Translations under genes and position numbers: made by a program
Shown here: piece by piece, positions 5,041 to 20,823 of the stretch
Layout of the letters: every line of letters starts with the position of its first letter
Numbering within the stretch: position 1 is the stretch's first letter
Notes under the pieces: generated by a model
What the model was told of the DNA's origin: nothing
Database searches by the model: none
Seen by the model: the letters and a program-made list of their open reading frames with translations, nothing else
DNA from: Lutibacter sp. Hel_I_33_5
GTDB taxonomy: Bacteria; Bacteroidota; Bacteroidia; Flavobacteriales; Flavobacteriaceae
DNA length: 64,000 nt
Reading direction: 5' to 3'
Assembly: GCF_007827455.1 (NCBI RefSeq)
Contig: NZ_VISM01000001.1
Location: forward strand, 2,971,001 to 3,035,000

Positions 5041-5068
5041 TTGAAGTTGATTTTTATGCATACTTTTG
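5041..5068 (+). promoter_or_regulatory. Promoter of the PL6 alginate lyase gene
   Basis: TTG at 5041-5043 and TACTTTTG at 5061-5068 with a 17-bp spacer match the Bacteroidota TTG / TAnnTTTG promoter. The -7 element shares its TTTG with the first operator box, so the predicted start of transcription falls inside that box. Confidence 0.7.
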
Positions 5069-5090
5069 GTAAACCAATCTGGTAAACCAA
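5066..5090 (+). promoter_or_regulatory. Tandem GntR-type operator (2 boxes) upstream of PL6
   Basis: Box 1 is TTGGTAAACCAA (5066-5077) and box 2 is CTGGTAAACCAA (5079-5090). The boxes are separated by one base, giving a 13-bp centre-to-centre distance. The consensus TTGGTnnACCAA is the same as the known E. coli UxuR/ExuR box. The array ends 20 bp before the start codon at 5111. The likely ligand is the GntR protein encoded at 20122. Confidence 0.75.
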
Positions 5091-5110
5091 TATTTTTTAA
5101 AAACTAAAGT

Positions 5111-7693
5111 ATGTATAAAATTACGCTAGTATTGTTTTTATTTTCTATTTCTATAATAGGTCAAACAACTCATAATATTAATAAACCTGAAGATCTTACC
5201 AGTTTATCTTCTACGCTAGCTGCTGGGGATACAGTGATTTTGGCTGATGGAGTTTATACTTCAGATACAAGAATTAAATTTTCTCCAACTACTGGTACAG
5301 CAGCCTCACCAATAACATTTAGATCGGCAACACCTGGAGGTGTTATGTTTACCGGAGGTCTAAGAATGAGTATTGGAGGTGATCATGTAATTGTTGATGG
5401 TTTTCATTGGCAAGGAGGTTATGGGGCGAGTAATTTTATTGAGTTTAGAGATGGTTATGATTATGCTAATCATAGTAAAATCCAGAACTGTGTAATTAAT
5501 GGTTTAGAAATAAGTCCTGATGACAAAGTTGATGATGGAACTACTTCTATTACTAAACATAGATGGATTGTTTTATATGGTACTTACAACACGGTAATTA
5601 ATTGTTCTTTTATGAATAAAAAAAGTGCAGGAGCATTAATCCTTGTTGAGTTAGCGTATAACGCAACTCCAGATGATGATGTAACAAATACTCGTTGTAG
5701 TGAAGTGGGGCATACAATAACTAAAAACTATTTTTATAAATATTCAAAAATTGATTCATCTTTAAGTAATTCTGGAGATAGTGAAACAATTCGAGTGGGA
5801 ACAAGTGAGTTTCAGAATGTAAATAGTAACACAACTGTAAGTAATAATTATTTTGTAGAAGCTGATGGTGAAAATGAAATTATCACCAATAAAAGTAAAA
5901 ACAATAAATACATAAATAACACTTTTAGAAGAAGTAGAGGTTCTTTAGTGTTAAGACACGGGTCTAATGCAACTGTTGATGGTAATTATTTTTTAGGTGA
6001 AAATGTTGATGGTACTGGAGGAATTAGAATAACAGATAGTGACCATACAATTACAAATAATTACATTCAAGATTGTATTACGGTAGTAAGTCAAGCAAAA
6101 TGGAATAATGGAATCACATTTATAGGAGGAGGAGATAATGCTTCAGTTGCATGTACATCAACAAGTACATCTAATGGATATCAAAAATCAAATAACATAA
6201 CACTTTCAAATAATTCAATTGTAAATACAAATGCACCTTTATTTTATAATATAGATAAAGGTTCTAATGATGTAACTGGAACTGTTTCAAATAATTTAAT
6301 TTATTTTACTTCTGGGAATAATAATGTTACAAATGTTATAACTGGAGATACAGCTGGTTCTTATGCTAGTATTGGGGCAACATTAAATTATTCAGGAAAT
6401 GTATTTACTGGTAGTGTTTTAGGAATAACTAATTCAGGTTTTTCTGAAGAAACTGGTATTTCTGCCACTGCTACTAATGAAATATTCACATTCTCAGGTG
6501 CGGGTTCATCAGGAAAAGGAGCAAATTTAGGAACTTACAATCCTACAACTGATGATATGGTTGGGCATGGGATTGGAGCATGCTTTTTAAATAATTTAGG
6601 TAATAATATTACAGACGGCAACTGTACAATTCAGATTCCAGAAACATTAACTATTGGTAGTTTGCAATCATTAACATCAAATGCTGCAAGTTATGATGTC
6701 TCTGTTACTGCAAATGTAAGTTGGACAGCTAAATCAAATGATACTTGGATAACAATTGATAAAAGTTCTGGAACTAATAACGCTTTAGTTTCAGTTTCTG
6801 TCACAAAAAATGAAACCTCAAATTTAAGAACAGGTTCAGTAACTTTTACACAAGATGCAGGAGGTGATGATATAGTTAGAACACTAACCATAACGCAACA
6901 GGGAGCAGATTTAACAAGCATTTACAGTTTAATCAATACAGGAGCAAATAATGACCCTGTAACTATTCATTCTTTTTCCAAAGAAGAAGTAGGTGGTGGT
7001 AAAACTAATTCTGCTGCAAATACTTTAGATAAAGATAATTCAACCGTTTGGGCTGCAGATGATGGCGCTATTATTTCAGGAGATAACAAAGGTGATGGAG
7101 AATATATTATTTATGATTTTGGGAGTAATCATATGGTTAATTTAATACAATTTAGTACTACCAATAAGTCAGATTCTTTTGGATTTCAAATTTGGGCTTC
7201 TTCAACAGGAACAAATACTTCTGATTTCTCAAAAATTCTCCCTACTTCATCAGAATTATTATTAACTGCAACAAGTACAACAGATTTTAATCAATACGAA
7301 ATAAGCAATGGTGTAAACGTTCGATATGTAAAATTAATTGGTTTTGGTAGATTTAACAGTGCTGGAGATACAAGAAAAAGTGTTTGGAGCGCAGTAGGTG
7401 AAATAGAGTTTTATGGGCCTTCAAGTTTATCAATTGATAATTCAAATTCAATCAATGAAGTGTTGATGTACCCAATTCCAGCAAAAAATGTACTTCATAT
7501 TAAAAACTTAAATCAAAAAGTAAAAGAAATCAAATTATATTCTATTGATGGGAAAAAAGTTTTAGAGAAAAAATTAGTGTCTTCAGTCCAAAATTCAAGT
7601 TTAGATGTTTCTCATATAAAAAGCGGTTTATATATTGTTATTATTGATAATGGAGAAGGTTTATTCTCGAAACTTATCTCAATATCACATTGA
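5111..7693 (+). CDS. Secreted alginate lyase PL6 with BACON, F5/8-type and T9SS domains
   Basis: An 860-aa multidomain enzyme. Residues 1-17 are a signal peptide. About 20-500 form a PL6 (chondroitinase B-like) beta-helix beginning DLTSLSSTLAAGDTVILADG. Catalytic candidates are K261 (in ITNKS) and R282 (in LVLRHG), 21 residues apart as in the characterised PL6 enzyme AlyGC (K220/R241). About 515-598 is a BACON domain (SWTAKSNDTWITI). About 605-775 is a discoidin/F5/8-type module ending EIEFYG. The last 75 residues (MYPIPAKNVLHI...SGLYIVII) are a type A T9SS sorting domain, so the enzyme is probably exported through T9SS to the cell surface or medium. It has its own promoter and operator. BACON and F5/8 modules are likely carbohydrate-binding or spacer domains. 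Confidence 0.92.
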   Translation: MYKITLVLFLFSISIIGQTTHNINKPEDLTSLSSTLAAGDTVILADGVYTSDTRIKFSPTTGTAASPITFRSATPGGVMFTGGLRMSIGGDHVIVDGFHWQGGYGASNFIEFRDGYDYANHSKIQNCVINGLEISPDDKVDDGTTSITKHRWIVLYGTYNTVINCSFMNKKSAGALILVELAYNATPDDDVTNTRCSEVGHTITKNYFYKYSKIDSSLSNSGDSETIRVGTSEFQNVNSNTTVSNNYFVEADGENEIITNKSKNNKYINNTFRRSRGSLVLRHGSNATVDGNYFLGENVDGTGGIRITDSDHTITNNYIQDCITVVSQAKWNNGITFIGGGDNASVACTSTSTSNGYQKSNNITLSNNSIVNTNAPLFYNIDKGSNDVTGTVSNNLIYFTSGNNNVTNVITGDTAGSYASIGATLNYSGNVFTGSVLGITNSGFSEETGISATATNEIFTFSGAGSSGKGANLGTYNPTTDDMVGHGIGACFLNNLGNNITDGNCTIQIPETLTIGSLQSLTSNAASYDVSVTANVSWTAKSNDTWITIDKSSGTNNALVSVSVTKNETSNLRTGSVTFTQDAGGDDIVRTLTITQQGADLTSIYSLINTGANNDPVTIHSFSKEEVGGGKTNSAANTLDKDNSTVWAADDGAIISGDNKGDGEYIIYDFGSNHMVNLIQFSTTNKSDSFGFQIWASSTGTNTSDFSKILPTSSELLLTATSTTDFNQYEISNGVNVRYVKLIGFGRFNSAGDTRKSVWSAVGEIEFYGPSSLSIDNSNSINEVLMYPIPAKNVLHIKNLNQKVKEIKLYSIDGKKVLEKKLVSSVQNSSLDVSHIKSGLYIVIIDNGEGLFSKLISISH

Positions 7694-7804
7694 TTTTTAT
7701 TCGACATTGTAGTTTTCTATAACACATTACTCTAGATTTTTATTTTAAAATTAAGTCTTTAACTCCTTAATTAGTAGTTTTTTAAAAATATGCTTGATAA
7801 TATT

Positions 7805-7833
7805 TTGATATTAAAATAATTAATGTATTTTTG
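7805..7833 (+). promoter_or_regulatory. Promoter of the binding-protein / PL17 / kdgF operon
   Basis: TTG at 7805-7807 (within TTTTG) and TATTTTTG at 7826-7833 with an 18-bp spacer. The last four bases of the -7 element are shared with operator box 1, as in the PL6 promoter. Confidence 0.7.
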
Positions 7834-7868
7834 GTAAACCAAATTGGTAAACCAGATTGGACTACCAA
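7831..7868 (+). promoter_or_regulatory. Tandem GntR-type operator (3 boxes)
   Basis: Box 1 TTGGTAAACCAA (7831-7842), box 2 TTGGTAAACCAG (7844-7855), box 3 TTGGACTACCAA (7857-7868). The period is exactly 13 bp, with one base between boxes. Box 3 is the weakest because its left half-site is TTGGA. The array ends 33 bp before the ATG at 7902. It argues against the in-frame TTG at 7857 as a start, since that codon lies inside box 3. Confidence 0.78.
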
Positions 7869-7901
7869 TCTAAACACTTTATTAACTATAAATTTAATAT
7901 C

Positions 7902-8864
7902 ATGAAAAAAACATTACTTTTTATTGCTTTAATAGCAACTACATCATTTTTTGCTCAAACCGAACTTGTTAAAAACGGTACTTGTGACGATCACGGAACA
8001 GGATCAGATACATCAAATACTGGTGATAATGCCGATGCTTGGGATATGACTCCTAATAGCACATTAAATGGTGATATAACTAGTCCTTATAGGTATGATG
8101 CAGATGATAATCCAACTGGGTGGAGAAATGATGATTTAGAAACATATCTTGAAACTACATATGCTAGTGGAGGATCTGTAAACGAACAACCAGGATCTAC
8201 AAGTGATGGAACCTATAATGATACTGAAAAAACAAGAGGTGTTAAGTTATATGGCGTAACTCGTCGTCTATATCAAAGAGTAGTAGTTGAAGCAGGAGCT
8301 GAGTATACTTTTACTATTCAGTCTCGTTCTAGTGATTCAGGTACCCCTTCTGAGGTGTTTATGTTAAATGAAGCTATAACTACTGAAGTTGGTCTTGTTG
8401 TTGATGGAGTTTCTGATTCTAGAGTTGATTATTTTCATGAGATTAAAAATGATATGAATTCTAGCAGTGGTTCAGTAGGAAATAATACATTTACTACAAC
8501 GACTTTTGACTTTACAGCTTCAACAACTGATGTTATAATTTATGTGAGATCATTAAGTTCTACTAGTGATAAACAAGTGTATTTCGACAATATAAGTCTT
8601 GTTAAGAAGGTCACTGCTTCTGTAAAAGATGTTTTTGGAGCAAACTTTGGTATGTATCCAAACCCAACAAAAACTAATTTTAGTTTTTCTTCTAAAGCAA
8701 GTGTAGATTCTGTAGAGATTTTTAATGTAATTGGAAAAAGTGTTTCTAAAGTAAGCGCAATTAAAAATAATAGAATTAACGTTTCTAATCTTAAAAGTGG
8801 AATCTATTTTGTTAAATTTAACAGTGGTAAATCTAGTATTACTAAGAAATTAGTTAAACAATAA
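7902..8864 (+). CDS. Secreted putative alginate-binding protein with T9SS domain
   Basis: A 320-aa protein with an N-terminal signal peptide (MKKTLLFIALIATTSFFAQ) and a C-terminal type A T9SS sorting domain (MYPNPTKTNFSF...SGIYFVKF). The middle begins with an NGTCDD segment and ends VYFDNISLVKK. This layout is typical of galactose-binding-fold (CBM4/9-like) modules, and it resembles distantly the C-terminal modules of the proteins at 16652 and 17636. No catalytic motif is visible, so a substrate-binding role at the cell surface is the best inference. It is the first gene of an operon with PL17 and kdgF. I chose the ATG at 7902 because it directly precedes the signal peptide; the upstream TTG lies in the operator. 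Confidence 0.75.
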   Translation: MKKTLLFIALIATTSFFAQTELVKNGTCDDHGTGSDTSNTGDNADAWDMTPNSTLNGDITSPYRYDADDNPTGWRNDDLETYLETTYASGGSVNEQPGSTSDGTYNDTEKTRGVKLYGVTRRLYQRVVVEAGAEYTFTIQSRSSDSGTPSEVFMLNEAITTEVGLVVDGVSDSRVDYFHEIKNDMNSSSGSVGNNTFTTTTFDFTASTTDVIIYVRSLSSTSDKQVYFDNISLVKKVTASVKDVFGANFGMYPNPTKTNFSFSSKASVDSVEIFNVIGKSVSKVSAIKNNRINVSNLKSGIYFVKFNSGKSSITKKLVKQ

Positions 8865-8893
8865 TTAAGTATAAAAAACTTGGGTGTTAATCA

Positions 8894-11143
8894 ATGAGTT
8901 CAAATAAATTTTTTTTCATAATTTTTGTCTTCACATTTTCTTTTTCTTGTAAAAGTGAAAAGGAAATACAAACAAAGAATATCACGAATCAGCATCCAAG
9001 TTTAATTTTAACTTCGCAAGGAGTTAAAGATATTAGAGCACAATTAGGTTCTATTCCAATTTTTGATAAAACGTTAGCAAAAGTAAAAGCAGAAGTTGAT
9101 GCAGAAATAGCTTCAGGAATAGAAGTTCCAATACCAAAAGATTATTCTGGAGGTTATACTCATTCAAGACATAAACAAAACTGGTTCATTCTGCAAAAGG
9201 CAGGTGTTTTGTATCAAATTTTAGATGACGAAAAATATGCTAAATATGTCAAAGACATGTTGATGCAGTATGAAGCGATGTATAAAAAATTGCCATTACA
9301 TCCTAAAACAAGATCATATGCTAGAGGTAAATTATTTTGGCAATGCTTAAACGATTCTAATTGGTTAGTTTATGTAAGTCAAGCTTACGATTGTATCTAT
9401 AATTACTTAACAGAAGAAGAACGTAACAAATTAGAAACAAATTTATTTAGGCCATTTGCAGATCATATTTCAATAGACAGTCCACAATTTTACCAAAGAG
9501 TACATAATCATAGTACTTGGGGAAATGCTGCAGTAGGTATGATTGGTTTAGTGATGAATGACGAAGAGTTAATTCAACGTGCTTTGTACGGAATTAAAGG
9601 AGTCAACCTAAATACAAAAGAGAAAGATGATGATGGCGGATTTTTAAATAAAGATGGAAAAGCAGGTTTTTTAGCAAATATAGAAGAACCTTTTTCTCCA
9701 GATGGTTATTATAACGAAGGGCCATATTACCAACGTTATGCAATGTATCCTTTTTTAGTTTTTGCTGAAGGATTACACAATGTAAAACCAGAATTAAAAA
9801 TTTTCGAATATAAAAACAGCGTACTTCTTAAGTCCATAAATGCATTATTAAATTTAACGGACGCAGATGGAGATTTTTTTCCGTTGAATGATGGTCAAAA
9901 AGGAATGTCATATTATACAAGTGCGTTAGTTACCGCTGTAGATATTTCATATCATTATGGAAAACAAGATCCAGGATTATTAAGTATTGCAGAAAAACAA
10001 GATCGTGTTTTATTAGACGATTCTGGTTTAGCTGTTGCGCTTGGTATTAAAAATGAAAAAACGAAACCATTTAATAAAAAATCAATTAATCTTTCAGATG
10101 GGCAAGATGGAACAGAAGGAGGTGTAGGTATTCTAAGAAATGAAGATATTGAGCTTGTTTTTAAATATGCGGCTCAAGGGTCAAGTCATGGACATTATGA
10201 TAAGTTATCGTATTCTTTATATGAGAAAGGAGAAGAAATCCTTCAAGATTACGGTCTATCTCGCTTTGTAAATATTGAGCAAAAAGGTGGCGGAAATTAT
10301 TTAAAAGAAAATAAAACATGGGCAAAACAAACGATTGCACATAATACAGTAACGCAAAATGAAACTTCTCATTTTAAAGGTAAATACGAAATAGGAAGTG
10401 AGCATCATTCAGTATTGCATTATTTTTCTTCGGATAATGATAATATAAAAGTAGTAAGTGCTAAAGAAGACAATGCATATCCCAATACAGGAATCCTTCG
10501 AACTATGGCAGTAATTAAAGATGAAGATTTTGAAAAGCCATTTGTATTAGATGTTATGAAAATAAATTCTAATAAGGCAAATAAATATGATTTTCCATTT
10601 TACTATTTTGGTCAAGTGTTGCAAACTAATTTTGATTACAAAACACCAGAAGTATTAAAGTCTTTAGGAAATAAAAATGGATATCAACATTTATATGTAG
10701 AAGGTTCTGCAAATGTAAATAAAGAGAATTCTAAGTTTTCTTGGTTACATAATAATAAGTTTTATTCTTTAACAACAGTTACTAATAATAAAGATGAATT
10801 GCTTTTTACCAGAATTGGTGCAAACGATCCAGATTTTAATTTACGAAGAGATCCTGCTTTAATATTAAGAAGAAAAAATACTAAAAACACACTTTTTGTT
10901 TCTACAATTGAATCGCATGGTAATTATAGCCCAGTTACTGAATCTGCAGTAAATTCTAAAAGTAATATAAAAGAGTTAAAAGTAGTTTTAGATACTGATG
11001 ATTATACTGCTATAGAAGTTACTACTATAAAAGGTGGTGATACAAAACTATTTATTACCGCAAATAAATCAACAACATCAAAACACAGTCTAGAGATTAA
11101 CGATACTAATTACAAATGGACAGGTGCTTATTATTTTAAGTAA
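8894..11143 (+). CDS. Oligoalginate lyase, polysaccharide lyase family 17, lipoprotein
   Basis: A 749-aa protein with a lipoprotein signal (FTFSFSCKS). The N-terminal half is an alpha-helical alginate lyase domain with an N-H pair in RVHNHSTWGNA near residue 204 and the tyrosine-rich EGPYYQRY at 275-282, where the catalytic Tyr of PL17 is expected. The C-terminal half is a heparinase II/III-like beta domain with SSHGHYDKLSYSLY, which carries the metal-binding His. PL17 enzymes are exo-acting and release unsaturated monouronate from alginate oligomers, probably in the periplasm. The gene starts 29 bp after the binding-protein gene, and kdgF follows after 24 bp, which is the enzyme expected to act on its product. 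Confidence 0.94.
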   Translation: MSSNKFFFIIFVFTFSFSCKSEKEIQTKNITNQHPSLILTSQGVKDIRAQLGSIPIFDKTLAKVKAEVDAEIASGIEVPIPKDYSGGYTHSRHKQNWFILQKAGVLYQILDDEKYAKYVKDMLMQYEAMYKKLPLHPKTRSYARGKLFWQCLNDSNWLVYVSQAYDCIYNYLTEEERNKLETNLFRPFADHISIDSPQFYQRVHNHSTWGNAAVGMIGLVMNDEELIQRALYGIKGVNLNTKEKDDDGGFLNKDGKAGFLANIEEPFSPDGYYNEGPYYQRYAMYPFLVFAEGLHNVKPELKIFEYKNSVLLKSINALLNLTDADGDFFPLNDGQKGMSYYTSALVTAVDISYHYGKQDPGLLSIAEKQDRVLLDDSGLAVALGIKNEKTKPFNKKSINLSDGQDGTEGGVGILRNEDIELVFKYAAQGSSHGHYDKLSYSLYEKGEEILQDYGLSRFVNIEQKGGGNYLKENKTWAKQTIAHNTVTQNETSHFKGKYEIGSEHHSVLHYFSSDNDNIKVVSAKEDNAYPNTGILRTMAVIKDEDFEKPFVLDVMKINSNKANKYDFPFYYFGQVLQTNFDYKTPEVLKSLGNKNGYQHLYVEGSANVNKENSKFSWLHNNKFYSLTTVTNNKDELLFTRIGANDPDFNLRRDPALILRRKNTKNTLFVSTIESHGNYSPVTESAVNSKSNIKELKVVLDTDDYTAIEVTTIKGGDTKLFITANKSTTSKHSLEINDTNYKWTGAYYFK

Positions 11144-11167
11144 ATAAAAAAGAATAAATTATAAATA

Positions 11168-11542
11168 ATGAAACGATTTAGTGAAAAATACGTCATCACA
11201 AAAGATATAAAGTGGGAAGAACTTGGTGGTGGAGTCTCAAGAAAATTTTTAGGATACGATAATCAAATTATGATGGTTAGTGTGAAATTTGAGAAAGGAG
11301 CTTTAGGTTCTCCACATCAACATTTTCACACACAAGCTACCTATTGTGTTTCAGGTAAATTCGAATTTGAAATTGATGGAGTGAAGCAAGTTATAGAAGC
11401 GGGAGATGGCGTGTATATTGAACCTAACTTATTGCATAGTGCAGTTTGTTTAGAAGAAGGACAATTAATTGATACATTTAGTCCGGTAAGAGAGGATTTC
11501 TTAACAGGTGATGGTCCATCTTATTTTGGAGATAAATCTTAA
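11168..11542 (+). CDS. kdgF: KdgF-type cupin, unsaturated uronate to DEH
   Basis: A 124-aa single-domain cupin. Metal ligands are visible in PHQHFHTQATY (His50, His52 and nearby His/Gln) and at His90 in PNLLHSA. The pattern and length match KdgF, which converts the 4,5-unsaturated monouronate made by exo-lyases into 4-deoxy-L-erythro-5-hexoseulose uronate (DEH). There is no signal peptide, so it should act in the cytoplasm. It is the last gene of the operon with PL17, its logical supplier of substrate. Confidence 0.92.
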   Translation: MKRFSEKYVITKDIKWEELGGGVSRKFLGYDNQIMMVSVKFEKGALGSPHQHFHTQATYCVSGKFEFEIDGVKQVIEAGDGVYIEPNLLHSAVCLEEGQLIDTFSPVREDFLTGDGPSYFGDKS

Positions 11543-11736
11543 GAAAAACTGTTTTTTGATTTTAATATCAATTTATAATATCCTCTTATTTTTAAGAAAT
11601 TATTTATAGTAAGCATTAATAGTTTTTTAAGTCATAATAAGACTAATCTTTTAGATGATTAATGATTGTTAATCAATTTATTAACAATAAATTAATAAAA
11701 AACAACAAAATATTTTTTTTAACAAAACATTTCATA

Positions 11737-11744
11737 TATATTTG
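11737..11744 (+). promoter_or_regulatory. Promoter -7 element of the SusC operon
   Basis: TATATTTG matches TAnnTTTG and shares TTTG with operator box 1 in the same register as at 5061 and 7826. No clear TTG lies at the -33 position; the upstream sequence is a T-run followed by AACAAAAC. The predicted transcript start near 11750 gives a leader of about 300 nt. Confidence 0.6.
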
Positions 11745-11779
11745 GTAAACCAATTTGGTGAACCAGTTTGGTTTTCCAG
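11742..11779 (+). promoter_or_regulatory. Tandem GntR-type operator (3 boxes) upstream of SusC
   Basis: Box 1 TTGGTAAACCAA (11742-11753), box 2 TTGGTGAACCAG (11755-11766), box 3 TTGGTTTTCCAG (11768-11779), again with a 13-bp period. Similarity to the consensus falls from box 1 to box 3. Unlike the other two arrays it lies far from the gene, 276 bp before the SusC start. Confidence 0.75.
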
Positions 11780-11834
11780 TTAAAGAAATCAAACACCATT
11801 AATATATGAGATAAATTTGAATTAATTAAAAGCA

Positions 11835-12025
11835 AAAAGGATAGGTGCACGCCTATCCTTTTAAAAAAAAACTTCTTCTGAAGGAAGTATTAACCAATAC
11901 ATAATTTGTGAATTAAGTATTAAGTAGTATCAAAAATACGAAAATTAATTTTTCTGTATTTTTATTTTAAACTTTATTTAAGGATTATGTTAATTAAAAG
12001 AAAATTTACCCTAAGAAGGTAAATT
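11835..12025 (+). promoter_or_regulatory. Structured 5' leader of the SusC operon, three hairpins
   Basis: Between the operator and the SusC start lie three inverted repeats. A perfect 11-bp stem AAAAGGATAGG/CCTATCCTTTT (11835-11845 with 11852-11862, loop TGCACG). A 7-bp stem with one G-U pair at 11871-11888 (ACTTCTTCTGAAGGAAGT). A perfect 8-bp stem AATTTACC/GGTAAATT (12003-12010 with 12018-12025). The first ends in only four T and is followed by a run of A, so it is a poor terminator for + strand transcripts; it could be an attenuator or a structured leader. No known riboswitch is recognised. Confidence 0.45.
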
Positions 12026-12055
12026 AATTACATTTTTAAATATAAACAATTAATT

Positions 12056-15000
12056 ATGAAATTAAAATTTAAAATAACATTATTACTAGTAATGTTAGTA
12101 AACGTTTGCTTTTATGCACAAGGTAGCTATACCATTAAAGGTACTGTTACAGCTAAAGCAGATAATTCCCCTTTACCAGGAGTATCAATTCTGATCGTAA
12201 AAACATCAAAAGGTACTGAAACTGATTTTGATGGTAATTATGCCATTCAAGTAAAAAGTGGAGATGTATTGCAATTTCAATATTTGGGATTTGCAAGTCA
12301 AACAGTAATCATTAATAATCAAAAAACGTTGAATATTAGTCTAGTAGAAGATACTAGTTCTTTAGACGAAGTGGTTGTTATTGGTTATGGTACACAAAAA
12401 AAATCACACCTTACTGGAGCAATTTCTAAAGTTGTAAACGAAAGTTTAGATCAAATAGCAGTTGCTAGGGTAGACGATGCTTTAATTGGGCAAGTTTCTG
12501 GTGTTAATATTCAAGCAACCAATGCAGAAGCGGGTGCTGCACCAACTATTACAATTAGAGGTTTTGGATCTATTACTGCCAATTCTGGACCAGCAGTTGT
12601 TGTTGATGGAGTAATAGTAGATTCAAGTTTTCTTGGAAACTTAGATATGAATGATGTTGAGTCTTTTGAAGTATTAAAAGATGCAGCCTCTGCAGCTATT
12701 TATGGTAGTGAAGGATCTAATGGTGTTATTTTGATAACAACAAAAACTGGAAAGGATGGAGATACAAAATTCTCATATAACACGTTTACAGGTTATAAGT
12801 CAGCTTTTGGAAGTGATGATTATAGAAAAAGTGTAGCAGATTGGGCAGCAAAAGAGTTTGCAGCTACAGGTGCACTTTCAGAAACTACTCAATATGCTCA
12901 AAAAATAGTAGAAGTAACGGGTATAGATAGAGATTGGCAAGATGTTTTCTTTGATGGAGGCTTCATTACAAGTCATTCTTTATCAGCAAGTGGAGGTAAT
13001 AAAGATACAAAGTTTAATACGTCATTAAGATATCTTCATGATGAAGGTGTGGTAATAACAGATGATTACAAGTTGTATTCTGCGAAATTAAAAGTAAATA
13101 GTAAATTAACAGATAAATTAAAGTTTGGTTTAAGTGCTACACCTTCATATTCTAAAAGAAGAGCCTTACCTACTTCAATACACAATCCAACAAGACAATC
13201 GCCTTGGTTACCTATTTATCATACTGCAGAAACATTGCAATTTATTAATAGAGCTTCTTATCCAGATGTAGGTGTAGGTGATTATTTTTATGAAAACCAT
13301 TTAGTTGAATTAGATTTAGATGGTAATGGTAGTGATAGTAGACCACGTACTTCTGGTGATGCAAATCCATATGCTCAATATGTTGAAAGAGAGTGGTTTG
13401 AGCATCAGACTAAATTATTAGGATCTACATTTTTACAATACGAGATACTAGATGGTCTTACAGCTAAAACATCATTAGGTGTTACTATAGAGCAACGTAA
13501 AAGAACAAGATGGGATGGTACAAAACATCATTCTGCTGGAAATAGTAGAGCTCAATATATCTTAAATAATAGATTTAGAACGAGATTAATTTCTGATAAT
13601 ACATTATCATACAATACCAATATTGGTGATCATGATATTAGTATTTTGGCAGGTGTAACTGTACAAAAAAGAAAAAATGAAGTAAGTCAAATTACTGGAA
13701 CAGGGTATACTAATGACTTATTAAAAAACTTGCAAGGGGCTACAACATTAGTTTCAAATGGAGAGTTTAATATTGTGCAAAACAAAATAGGATATTTTGG
13801 TAGAATTAATTACGCATTTTCTGATAAATATTTAGTTTCGGCTTCATTTAGACGTGATGGTAGTTCTGTTTTTGGAATTGATTCTAAATGGGGTAACTTT
13901 CCAGCTGTATCATTAGGGTGGAATGTAACGAATGAAGATTTTCTTTCAGAATCTGAAACACTAAGTAAATTAAAATTAAGGGTTAGTTATGGTCTTACTG
14001 GATCAGAAAACTTTAATGTAGGTAGTGTTACAGTTAATGCTTGGCCTTATTTGGCACAGTTAACAAATACAAATGCTATTATTAATGGAGGTGTTACTGC
14101 TGGTAATTCACCACTAAATATTGCAAATCCTTTATTACAATGGGAAGCATCTGAAGAATTTAATCCAGGTATTGATTTTGGGTTTTTAAATAATAGAATT
14201 ACTGGATCTTTAGATTATTATAAAAGAACAAGTGATAAGTTATTATTAAACAACCCTGTTTCTTATGTTACAGGTTTTAATAATGGAATTGTAAATTTAG
14301 GAAAAGTAGCAAATAGTGGTATTGAACTTGAATTAAGAAGTAAAAATGTTGCCAACGAGAATTTCTCTTGGAATACTTCGTTAATTGCTTCTACAAACAA
14401 AAATGAATTACTTGATTATGGTGAGTCTGATGGAGCGTTAACTCAAGATGGATTTGGTAGAAATTCAGAATGGATCAATTCTGTAGGTAATCCTATCTCT
14501 TCTTTCTATGGGTATGTAGTAGATAAAGAATTAGCAGATGAATACTGGAACTCTCCTTGGATTCCAATTAACGGTAAATCAGAAGATATTATTGTTAAAG
14601 ATTTAAATGGAGATGGTATCATCACAAATGCAGATAAAACTATTTTAGGAGATCCCTATCCAGAAATTACTTGGAGTTTAACAAATGATTTCAATATTGG
14701 AAACTTTGACTTTTCTTTTATGATTCAAGGAAGTCAAGGAGCAGAAGTAAAAAATATTGGTGACCAATATTTCTATACTCACTGGACTGGTGCAACTACA
14801 GATGAACAAGCAGTTGTAACAGCAGGAATTATTCCAGATGCTTCATTTCTTCAACCAAGAATTCATACAAACGATATAATTTCTAGTGCAGGTTATTTTT
14901 CATTGAGAAATGTAAATTTAGGATTTACATTACCGGATGATGTTGTATCAAAATTAGGAATGCAAAGTTTAAGATTGTATGCGACGGGTCAGAACTTACT

Positions 15001-15139
15001 TTACATAACTTCTGATGACTATCATGGTTTTAATCCAGAGTATATTGATAGTAATAATACACCTACATCTTATGGAGCGCAAAGAGCTGGAACGCCTTTG
15101 TTTAGAACCATTTCGGTTGGTTTAAACGTTAATTTTTAA
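12056..15139 (+). CDS. SusC-like TonB-dependent receptor for alginate oligomers
   Basis: A 1027-aa outer-membrane protein. After a signal peptide (ending CFYAQ) comes a carboxypeptidase-D-like regulatory domain (IKGTVTAKADNSPLPGVSILI...DGNYAIQV), then the plug domain opening with LDEVVVIGYGTQKKSHLTGAI, and a long beta-barrel ending with the aromatic VGLNVNF. SusC proteins import oligosaccharides with SusD as lid, driven by TonB. SusD starts 18 bp downstream. The surrounding lyases point to alginate oligomers as substrate. It is the first gene of the five-gene operon 12056-20065, preceded by the operator array and structured leader. Confidence 0.95.
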   Translation: MKLKFKITLLLVMLVNVCFYAQGSYTIKGTVTAKADNSPLPGVSILIVKTSKGTETDFDGNYAIQVKSGDVLQFQYLGFASQTVIINNQKTLNISLVEDTSSLDEVVVIGYGTQKKSHLTGAISKVVNESLDQIAVARVDDALIGQVSGVNIQATNAEAGAAPTITIRGFGSITANSGPAVVVDGVIVDSSFLGNLDMNDVESFEVLKDAASAAIYGSEGSNGVILITTKTGKDGDTKFSYNTFTGYKSAFGSDDYRKSVADWAAKEFAATGALSETTQYAQKIVEVTGIDRDWQDVFFDGGFITSHSLSASGGNKDTKFNTSLRYLHDEGVVITDDYKLYSAKLKVNSKLTDKLKFGLSATPSYSKRRALPTSIHNPTRQSPWLPIYHTAETLQFINRASYPDVGVGDYFYENHLVELDLDGNGSDSRPRTSGDANPYAQYVEREWFEHQTKLLGSTFLQYEILDGLTAKTSLGVTIEQRKRTRWDGTKHHSAGNSRAQYILNNRFRTRLISDNTLSYNTNIGDHDISILAGVTVQKRKNEVSQITGTGYTNDLLKNLQGATTLVSNGEFNIVQNKIGYFGRINYAFSDKYLVSASFRRDGSSVFGIDSKWGNFPAVSLGWNVTNEDFLSESETLSKLKLRVSYGLTGSENFNVGSVTVNAWPYLAQLTNTNAIINGGVTAGNSPLNIANPLLQWEASEEFNPGIDFGFLNNRITGSLDYYKRTSDKLLLNNPVSYVTGFNNGIVNLGKVANSGIELELRSKNVANENFSWNTSLIASTNKNELLDYGESDGALTQDGFGRNSEWINSVGNPISSFYGYVVDKELADEYWNSPWIPINGKSEDIIVKDLNGDGIITNADKTILGDPYPEITWSLTNDFNIGNFDFSFMIQGSQGAEVKNIGDQYFYTHWTGATTDEQAVVTAGIIPDASFLQPRIHTNDIISSAGYFSLRNVNLGFTLPDDVVSKLGMQSLRLYATGQNLLYITSDDYHGFNPEYIDSNNTPTSYGAQRAGTPLFRTISVGLNVNF

Positions 15140-15157: not shown

Positions 15158-16630
15158 ATGAAATATATAAAATTATTAATTTTTGTTATAACAGGAGCAA
15201 TGTTTGTCTCTTGTGATACAGATGAGTTTTTAAACCCATTGCCAGATACTTCTATAGTATCAGAAAACTTTTTTCAATCTGATGATGATGTTTTATCTGG
15301 AATTATAGGTGTTTATGATGCTATACAAGGGGTAAATGAGAATACACAGTCAAGTTCTGTGAGATTTAATAGAGGTGTACAATTAGAATACCTTTTAACC
15401 GAACATCGTTCTGACAATACAAGAAGTAAAACACTTGAAGGGTCTAGAGCAGATTTTCATAGATATATAGTTGAGCCAGAGAATATTCAATCAGAAGATT
15501 ATTACCAATCTATGTATGAGATTATTTTTAGAGCAAATAACGTTTTAAAGTATGTTGACAATGCAGATGCTGCGAATATTAATAAATATACGGCCGAAGC
15601 TAAGTTTTTAAGAGCCTATGCATATTTTAACTTAGTACGATTATATGGAGATGTACCATTGTTAACTAGAGTAGCAAGTTCAGATGAAAAAGAACTTCTT
15701 TATACAAGAGTAGATGTTGCTAAAGTTTATGAGCAAATTGTTTCAGATTTAAAAGAGGGAGTTTCTTATTTAGATAATTCACATAAATCTAGAGCATCTA
15801 AAGCTGCAGCTCAAGGAATTTTAGCTAAAGTTTATTTATCACAACCATCTCCTAATTATTCTGGAGCTAAAGCATTATGTGAAGCTATAATGGGTAGTGG
15901 TTTTTCTTTACAATCAAACTTTAGTGATGTATTTTACAAAGAATTAAACAGCGAAATTATTTTTGCTATAGAGTATATTGCTGGAGACCCTAATGAAAGT
16001 CAAGGATTTTCATCAGAGTTTACATCTTTTAAACGTCAAGGTAGACAAGATGGTCTTAACATAGTTAATCCAAACCTTGCTGTAGACTTTATTGCACATG
16101 GAGGAAATAGAACGACAGCATCTTATGCAGCTTTTGGGGATGATGTTAATCTTCCTGTACCATTAGATGCAGAGATAATTAAATTCTTACCTTTTGGATC
16201 AAATATTTCAGATAGAAATCTTCCTACTTATGGTGAACAACCTGGAAATGCAGGTAACGATTGGATTATTTTACGATATTCAGATGTATTATTAATGCAT
16301 GCTGAAGCAATTATGCAAGGAAATCCTACAAATGATACAAGTGCAATAGATTCTTATATGAAGGTAAAAGTAAGAGCAGGATTTGACGCTGTAGCAGATC
16401 GTCCTTCAGCTTTAACTGTTGATGCTTTATTATTAGAAAGAAGAGTAGAATTAGCTTTTGAAAATCATCGATTCTTTGATTTAGTAAGGTTAGGTGTAGC
16501 ACATCAAGTATTAGGTGCACACGCTACATTAAAAGGATATACGAGCTATAATGTCAGAAGATTATTATTACCTATACCTTCAAGAGAAATTAATTTAAGT
16601 GAAGGTTTGTTGACTCAAAATCCGCAATAA
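15158..16630 (+). CDS. SusD-like nutrient-binding outer-membrane lipoprotein
   Basis: A 490-aa RagB/SusD family protein with lipoprotein signal MFVSC (Cys near residue 19). It shows typical SusD features: early FLNPLPDTSI, the TPR-like helical AKFLRAYAYFNLVRLYGDVPL, and the C-terminal LLLERRVELAFENHRFFDLVRLG and LLPIPSREI. It should form the lid of the SusC transporter encoded 18 bp upstream and bind alginate oligomers at the surface. Confidence 0.95.
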   Translation: MKYIKLLIFVITGAMFVSCDTDEFLNPLPDTSIVSENFFQSDDDVLSGIIGVYDAIQGVNENTQSSSVRFNRGVQLEYLLTEHRSDNTRSKTLEGSRADFHRYIVEPENIQSEDYYQSMYEIIFRANNVLKYVDNADAANINKYTAEAKFLRAYAYFNLVRLYGDVPLLTRVASSDEKELLYTRVDVAKVYEQIVSDLKEGVSYLDNSHKSRASKAAAQGILAKVYLSQPSPNYSGAKALCEAIMGSGFSLQSNFSDVFYKELNSEIIFAIEYIAGDPNESQGFSSEFTSFKRQGRQDGLNIVNPNLAVDFIAHGGNRTTASYAAFGDDVNLPVPLDAEIIKFLPFGSNISDRNLPTYGEQPGNAGNDWIILRYSDVLLMHAEAIMQGNPTNDTSAIDSYMKVKVRAGFDAVADRPSALTVDALLLERRVELAFENHRFFDLVRLGVAHQVLGAHATLKGYTSYNVRRLLLPIPSREINLSEGLLTQNPQ

Positions 16631-20065: not shown

Positions 20066-20095
20066 ATTAGTTTTTATATATTTATAAATTAAACT

Positions 20096-20107
20096 CTGGT
20101 TAACCAA
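20096..20107 (+). promoter_or_regulatory. Single GntR-type operator box upstream of the gntR gene
   Basis: CTGGTTAACCAA matches the TTGGTnnACCAA box of the three arrays, 14 bp before the regulator's start codon. It suggests autoregulation. A second box in the 13-bp register (20109-20120) is not convincing. Confidence 0.65.
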
Positions 20108-20121
20108 TTAGTAAATAACAT

Positions 20122-20823
20122 ATGAAATTAGAAGTACTTACAAAAAACGAAAATTTAACGGTTCAGAACTCAATAATCATAGGTATTAGAGAGCTTATAA
20201 ATTATAAAAATTTAGAGCCTGGTGATAAATTGCCATCGGAGAGAATGCTTTCTGAAAAGTTTGAAGTAAGTAGGTCTAATTTAAGAGAAGCAATTCAAAA
20301 ATTAGAATTTTATGGATTGTTGATTTCTAAGCCTCAAAGTGGAACTTTTGTTGCAGATATTGGAGTGATTGCTTTAAACGGAATGATTGAAGATATTTTA
20401 CGATTAGAGGATCCAGATTTTAAATCTTTAGTAGAAACAAGAATTTTACTAGAATTAAAGACTGTAAGATTAGCAGCTTTAAGAAGAACTGATGAAGATT
20501 TAGCACAACTAAAAGAAGCTTTAGAAGCTTATAAAATTAAAGTAGAAAATGGTGAAGATGCTGTACAAGAAGATTTATTATTTCATTTAGCAGTAGCAAA
20601 AGCAAGTGGAAATAGTACAATGAATACCTTCATGTTAATTATTACACCAGAAATTATTACCAATTTTGAAAAGTACCATGTTTGTGACACAAATTTATCG
20701 CAAAAAGGAATAAATGAACATCAAGATATTTATGATGCAATTTTAAATCAAAATCCTAAATTGGCAAAACAAAAAATGAAAGTTCACTTTAAAACATTAT
20801 ACCAATATTGTTATAATATTTAA
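20122..20823 (+). CDS. GntR-family regulator, FadR/UxuR type (FCD domain), likely alginate-locus repressor
   Basis: A 233-aa protein. The N-terminal winged helix-turn-helix has the GntR signature PGDKLPSERMLSEKFEVSRSNLREAI (about residues 33-58). The C-terminal all-helical FCD ligand-binding domain has the usual metal-binding residues in EDLLFHLAVAKASGN, NEHQDIYDAI and KMKVHFKTL. FCD regulators of the UxuR/ExuR group sense uronate catabolites and bind TTGGTATACCAA-like boxes, and such boxes precede three operons of this locus and this gene. It most probably represses the locus and is released by an intermediate such as DEH, KDG or KDPG. The effector identity is inference. Confidence 0.92.
   Translation: MKLEVLTKNENLTVQNSIIIGIRELINYKNLEPGDKLPSERMLSEKFEVSRSNLREAIQKLEFYGLLISKPQSGTFVADIGVIALNGMIEDILRLEDPDFKSLVETRILLELKTVRLAALRRTDEDLAQLKEALEAYKIKVENGEDAVQEDLLFHLAVAKASGNSTMNTFMLIITPEIITNFEKYHVCDTNLSQKGINEHQDIYDAILNQNPKLAKQKMKVHFKTLYQYCYNI

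Follow-up and report, generated by a model that had tools for sequence, protein, structure and literature searches.

Tandem boxes at a fixed 13-bp step as probable operators of an AusR-type repressor in an alginate locus of Lutibacter sp. Hel_I_33_5, with a candidate antisense RNA in the susC leader

An alginate locus of Lutibacter sp. Hel_I_33_5 contains arrays of palindromic boxes, arranged in tandem at a fixed step of 13 bp and fused to the promoters, that very likely serve as operators for a GntR/FCD repressor of the AusR type encoded in the same locus. The locus lies in a stretch of 64,000 nucleotides (nt) of contig NZ_VISM01000001.1 (positions 2,971,001 to 3,035,000; hereafter the window, in whose own numbering the features are given). 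Alginate is a main sugar of brown algae, and loci of this type let marine bacteria use it. Comparison with the regulator and with related loci indicated that the boxes are very probably binding sites of an AusR-type repressor. The arrays, a further single box and the regulator gene were located as follows:

5066..5090, plus strand: putative two-box operator array before a lyase gene (sequence, genome pattern scan)
7831..7868, plus strand: putative three-box operator array (sequence, genome pattern scan)
11742..11779, plus strand: putative three-box operator array before the susC gene (sequence, genome pattern scan)
20096..20107, plus strand: single box CTGGTTAACCAA before the regulator gene (window box scan, array comparison)
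20122..20823, plus strand: AusR-type GntR/FCD protein (GntR helix-turn-helix, HTH, plus FCD domain)

The box unit is TTGGTnnACCAA, perfect copies of which are limited to the first box of each window array. Over ten fixed bases, the numbers of mismatches were 0 and 1 for the boxes at 5066-5077 and 5079-5090; 0, 1 and 1 for those at 7831-7842, 7844-7855 and 7857-7868; and 0, 1 and 2 for those at 11742-11753, 11755-11766 and 11768-11779. A first-pass annotation of this DNA had described three arrays of two, three and three boxes with an exact 13-bp period, and these were found exactly where it had placed them, with a step of 13 bp at every box pair. Its statement that ACCAA-n-TTGGT junctions are themselves inverted repeats holds for the junctions between good boxes, and the rotation of about 85 degrees per box agrees with the ~86 degrees computed from the step.

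A genome-wide motif scan at 13-bp spacing, proposed in the same annotation, was performed on 3,101,420 bases (i.e. one contig). When up to three mismatches were allowed in a 25-base double box, eight forward matches were obtained and none for the reversed control. The eight represent five arrays. Three are those of the window; a fourth, with two boxes, lies 5.4 kb upstream of it (C1:2965580; L123 10580-10604), and a fifth, with three boxes, is remote from the alginate locus (C1:2461155; L124 8156-8193). The gene behind the last of these encodes an F5/8-type C domain protein with a type IX secretion system (T9SS) tail and is likely an unlinked AusR target. Single boxes with up to two mismatches numbered 65 in the window, whereas 100 shuffles averaged 40.6 and reached 58 at most; the window count of single boxes alone is not remarkable. 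The single box at 20096-20107 had gone unmentioned in the first-pass annotation.

Possession of a GntR HTH and an FCD domain together with a position in the alginate locus are traits of AusR, and both were found for the product of 20122-20823, which is the only FCD match in the genome. This protein scored below the NCBIfam cut-offs for LldR (123 against 311 bits), NanR (114.5 against 260), PdhR (97 against 330), UxuR (69.1 against 442) and ExuR (62.3 against 396), ruling out membership of UxuR or ExuR. Operators of UxuR/ExuR and of PdhR, which are GntR/FCD proteins, are similar TTGGT...ACCAA palindromes and are not known to occur in more than single copies. The first-pass annotation had equated the box with the known UxuR/ExuR site. 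The nearest solved sequences to the regulator include PdhR and NanR.

AusR, the alginate-utilization repressor of Zobellia galactanivorans, was reportedly studied by Dudek et al. 2020. According to the passages cited here, the alginate genes of Zobellia are repressed by AusR, a GntR protein (PMC8286568, PMC7874173, PMC8073546) that binds promoters via single, double or triple operator copies (PMC7874173) and is prevented from binding by alginate breakdown products (PMC8286568, PMC7874173). Single, double and triple operator copies were likewise found at alginate promoters in the present comparison, by sequence only, and the published Zobellia locus, as far as those passages describe it, shares with this one a GntR repressor and PL7 and PL17 lyase genes. 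Zobellia is a different genus, and the likeness is drawn from published descriptions; no record named Zobellia was present among the best 80 of 368 relative loci.

A further precedent is NanR of Escherichia coli, a GntR protein of the FadR type, three dimers of which bind three tandem repeats cooperatively, with cooperativity mediated by a 32-residue N-terminal extension (PMC8012715). The systems resemble each other in placing several dimers on one tandem operator with a defined spacing of the repeats, which here is the 13-bp step; in NanR the dimers are about half a turn apart, cooperative and weakened by a sugar. Unlike the 12-bp palindromes at 13 bp in the alginate locus, the NanR repeats are GGTATA and lie under half a turn apart (PMC8012715). 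The first-pass annotation knew of no such tandem packing for FadR-type GntR proteins, but the cited passages report it for both AusR (PMC7874173) and NanR (PMC8012715). As multi-copy operators of AusR and cooperative tandem binding by NanR have been reported, the arrays represent a system of a published kind. No paper was found with the box pattern as a literature search word, which says little.

Conservation was examined by scanning named genomes for the regulator protein, which identified 368 relatives; the comparison used the 80 best of these loci, 1.54 Mb in total. Pairs of boxes with no more than one mismatch, within 60 bp of each other, were spaced at 13 bp in 102 cases, at 26 bp in 34, at 39 bp in two and at 33 bp in one. 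Four of five control palindromes were without any pair in these loci, and the fifth had a single pair at 1 bp. Multi-box arrays, counted with neighbouring boxes of up to three mismatches admitted, were present in 76 of the 80 loci; 125 arrays were intergenic (five from the genome under study) and two were in coding sequence. In 88 genomes of the genus, in which an AusR-like protein was called at E up to 1e-40, at least three tandem matches were observed in 35 of the 37 genomes with an AusR-like gene and in one of the 51 without. Absence of the arrays from orthologous promoters had been named in the first-pass annotation as a result that would refute its reading; the arrays were conserved in both the 80 loci and the genus genomes. 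A stricter pattern applied to a sample of 295 genomes of the class matched in three (i.e. the genome under study, one other of the genus and one of another family).

Ten of the genus genomes listed (G021, G029, G034, G037, G047, G051, G067, G076, G077 and G079) contain one or more AusR-like paralogues of 51-57% identity beside AusR, so that operator specificity may have split. A broken AusR-like piece with 58% identity was present in G062.

The two central bases of the boxes were also compared. Likeness was 0.53 within an array, 0.59 between different slots of different arrays and 0.69 between the same slots of different arrays. Boxes of one array were thus no more alike centrally than boxes from different slots of different arrays, which points to a constraint on the 13-bp step; recent tandem duplication as the cause of the constant step is not supported by these values.

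The main -7 element of Flavobacterium psychrophilum is described as TAnnTTTG at -12 to -5 in the cited part of PMC9723704. Elements of this form overlap the first box of each window array, and a similar one precedes the box of the regulator gene:

5061..5068, plus strand: putative -7 promoter element TACTTTTG, of the form TAnnTTTG and overlapping box 1 of the array (sequence, array profile)
7826..7833, plus strand: putative -7 promoter element TATTTTTG, overlapping box 1 of the array (sequence)
11737..11744, plus strand: putative -7 promoter element TATATTTG, overlapping box 1 of the array (sequence)
20077..20084, plus strand: -7-like element TATATTTA, whose first base lies 19 nt upstream of the regulator-gene box

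Of 147 oriented arrays, six were dropped as ambiguous between two genes; the fusion was examined in the 117 oriented multi-box arrays. In 113 of them TA preceded the first box by 5 nt, and 96 had the full TAnnTTTG. Counted from the box, T was present at -27 in 97% and at -26 in 92%. Of the 72 susC arrays, 70 had a TAnnTTTG beginning exactly 5 nt ahead of box 1. The layout of AusR-gene arrays was different in that TAnnTTTR, usually ending in A, started 18-20 nt before the last box (45 of 47 arrays). The first box base was T in 99% of first boxes as compared to 52% of second boxes, consistent with a first box that doubles as a -7 element. The slots would then be fixed relative to predicted starts, with slot 1 at about -7 to +5, slot 2 at about +7 to +18 and slot 3 at about +20 to +31. 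If the -7 reading holds, transcription from the arrays at 5066-5090, 7831-7868 and 11742-11779 is predicted to start near 5073, 7838 and 11749, respectively, and the 20096-20107 box would lie at about +8 to +19.

The matching genome of another family (G239:C10:205529-205553, L137) contains 13-bp arrays and AusR homologues of 55% and 50% identity, one of which is ~0.3 kb from an array. By eye, the -7 fusion is absent from both of its arrays. The presence of these arrays with homologues but without the fusion indicates that the 13-bp step goes with the protein and not only with the promoter layout.

The number of boxes differed between promoters. Genes were classed by their best BLAST hit to the proteins of the window and of L123/L124, and eight arrays with no or two candidate genes were excluded. 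The susC arrays had one, two, three and four boxes in 1, 23, 44 and 4 cases, respectively; those of AusR genes had one box in 21 cases and two in 26, with the first box often half lost. Such numbers would fit graded repression with mild autorepression. The first-pass annotation had proposed grading by the number and quality of boxes, and the underlying differences between promoters are indeed kept across genera; graded repression itself is what these differences suggest.

In the proposed mechanism, a repressor dimer on slot 1 would deny RNA polymerase access to the -7 element. The dimers bound at slots 2 and 3, each turned by ~86 degrees, would either stabilise the slot-1 dimer by contact or add roadblocks, and we infer that binding along the arrays may be cooperative. 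Alginate breakdown products would release the repressor, as reported for AusR. The susC promoters, mostly with two to four slots filled, would be repressed hardest, and the regulator gene, with mainly slot 2 occupied behind its -7-like element, would repress itself only mildly.

Several observations weigh against this reading. Two of the 37 AusR genomes have fewer than three tandem matches, and G048 (83% complete) has seven matches and no AusR hit. Another genome, G004, was counted among the 37 on the strength of a 51% paralogue. The 80 loci are related by descent and hence are not independent samples. The alignment with NanR begins at residue 22 of the 20122-20823 product and at residue 40 of NanR, a local start being a crude measure of length; by this measure the protein would be 18 residues shorter than NanR ahead of the HTH. 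The absence, by the same measure, of any sign of a NanR-length N-terminal extension favours separate AusR dimers that bind without cooperativity, with extra boxes raising occupancy or local concentration and 13 bp being the closest steric packing. Single boxes also exist and persist, mostly at the regulator gene (21 of 47 arrays). Steric hindrance, however, would set only a minimum and leave wider steps free, yet of the 139 box pairs counted within 60 bp all but one are spaced by multiples of 13, and we regard this explanation as possible but rather unlikely.

The other alternatives differ in what is bound or by what. A different regulator, such as a 51-57% identical paralogue, could occupy the arrays, since the ten genus genomes listed above hold such a protein in addition to full-length AusR and G004 has its 51% paralogue alongside nine tandem matches. 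The genome of the window has a single FCD match, however, and in G004 there are also two 41-residue stretches of N-terminal AusR sequence (93% identity), making this improbable. It is more improbable still that the binding unit is the other register, ACCAA-n-TTGGT. This motif forms at the inverted-repeat junctions of good boxes, and 54 of the 63 exact ACCAAnTTGGT in the 80 loci are inside arrays; but the remaining nine are all in open frames of at least 1 kb and no isolated intergenic copy was seen in these loci, whereas single boxes of the TTGGTnnACCAA type were intergenic in 24 cases. The sequence that follows the last box is rich in T or A and has no further TTGGT half-site, and ACCAAnTTGGT as the unit is unsupported by both the isolated-copy counts and these flanks. 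Chance or low-complexity matches might be expected in AT-rich sequence, in which single degenerate boxes are common (90 in coding sequence), but this explanation is scarcely credible given eight matches versus none for the control, the fixed spacing and the conservation with the gene. Operators of the locus's own AusR-type repressor thus remain the preferred reading of the arrays.

The susC promoter may be subject to an additional control. A long leader separates its array from the start codon and contains a candidate antisense RNA:

11780..12055, plus strand: leader of 276 nt between the array and the susC start codon
11832..11926, minus strand: candidate antisense RNA of ~95 nt (hairpin and fold comparison)
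11931..11938, minus strand: TATTTTTG as read on this strand, a -7-like element for the candidate antisense RNA, without a -33 element

The candidate has a stem in its 5' part, a stem at 11871-11888 and a terminator-like hairpin at 11835-11862, followed by a run of T on the minus strand. At least 100 nt lie between array and start codon in 67 of 72 susC leaders, and 51 of these 67 share the hairpin AAAAGGAYRGGTGCACGCCYATCCTTTT with up to eight mismatches; the best of 1,340 mononucleotide-shuffled leaders was never under 10 mismatches. A model derived from the 51 scored 48-56 bits in seven of the 16 leaders missed by the pattern. After the hairpin, all 51 have 8 or 9 T per 10 bases on the minus strand, with a mean of 5.1 for the sense strand; at least 7 T per 10 bases follow the G+C stem on the minus strand in 51/51 and on the plus strand in 3/51, four T on either side having belonged to the pattern by which hairpins were selected. 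These T runs make a sense-strand terminator the less likely reading of the hairpin. A second stem comes next, and an alignment of the 51 leaders revealed changes on both sides in five of 15 predicted pairs, four of them in one sequence only.

A promoter for the antisense RNA was sought among 60 leaders chosen by the mismatch rule alone. Of these, 40 had a minus-strand TAnnTTTG at a distance of 30-60 nt from the beginning of the stretch searched, as compared to a mean of 2.5 and a largest value of 7 in 500 runs of a first-order Markov null model. An earlier count, using 57 of the 67 leaders (nine dropped by name once the hairpin comparison was known, and one by mismatch number), likewise gave 40. 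The RNAs predicted from the 40 of 60 leaders have lengths of 79-102 nt, and on average their 5' parts fold better than shuffles (mean z of -1.8, n=40; below -1 in 30 and above 0 in three), with a z of -3.8 for the window candidate. Rfam gave no match at the gathering score in the whole window; at the leader its only two matches were far below that score (E of 2.4 and 3.9). A pattern search detected one copy of the leader element in its own genome.

Other results argue against an antisense RNA. TTG occurred 17-23 nt upstream of the -7-like element in none of the 40 leaders (shuffle mean 3.7), and the conserved block continues past this element as TTTYYG; because of both, the element may be something other than a promoter. 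The symmetric stem changes could reflect a DNA palindrome. In addition, the leader model exceeded 42 bits in only 14 of the 37 AusR-bearing genus genomes; it did so in none of the 51 without AusR, where several weak matches of 30-39 bits were observed.

DonS-type cis-antisense RNAs of 78-128 nt are described at susC homologues of Bacteroides polysaccharide loci in the cited part of PMC7366714, and the predicted lengths fall within this range. DonS differs in belonging to Bacteroides and to host-derived glycans, whereas the leader element is associated with alginate, is predicted only and has neither an Rfam match nor a -33 element. No description of such an antisense RNA in flavobacterial alginate loci was found in searches of open-licence papers, among them PMC7366714, PMC11697453 and PMC9723704. 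Transcribed from the strand opposite to susC, the antisense RNA would begin within the long leader and terminate at the conserved hairpin shortly before the AusR array. Like DonS in Bacteroides, it would dampen susC expression that is leaky or in excess. That the alginate susC operons of marine Flavobacteriaceae are doubly controlled, by promoter-fused 13-bp AusR arrays and by an undescribed family of antisense RNAs of ~80-100 nt, is a proposal for which we see the evidence as evenly balanced; an initial leaning slightly in its favour was given up because a -33 element is missing from the 40 putative antisense promoters.

The genes associated with the window arrays are those of an alginate locus:

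5111..7693, plus strand: secreted lyase with a T9SS tail (Pfam Chondroitinas_B), which we take to be of family PL6
7902..8864, plus strand: 320-aa protein with a T9SS tail, encoded by the gene that follows the three-box array (sequence, Pfam)
8894..11143, plus strand: oligoalginate-lyase-like enzyme (Pfam Hepar_II_III_C, Alginate_lyase), presumably of family PL17
12056..15139, plus strand: SusC-type TonB-dependent receptor (domain and family profile matches)
15158-16630: SusD, next after the SusC gene

The 8894..11143 product scored 655 bits with NCBIfam NF042990, under the cut-off of 1400. The listed TTG start at 7857, giving a reading frame of 335 aa, falls inside the operator array, and the start codon of the T9SS-tailed protein gene is likely the ATG at 7902. 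Downstream of the C1:2965580 array are a second Chondroitinas_B-type lyase and then a PfkB kinase, a protein that matches M23 below the threshold, and a lyase of the PL7 type. The alginate locus begins upstream of the window.

The published description of AusR operators in one to three copies would thereby become a measurable layout, in which slots are tied to the -7 element and the number of boxes varies with the gene. Spacing, box number and autorepression are made directly testable by this layout. If the antisense RNA is expressed, it would extend a control principle of gut Bacteroides to marine flavobacteria.

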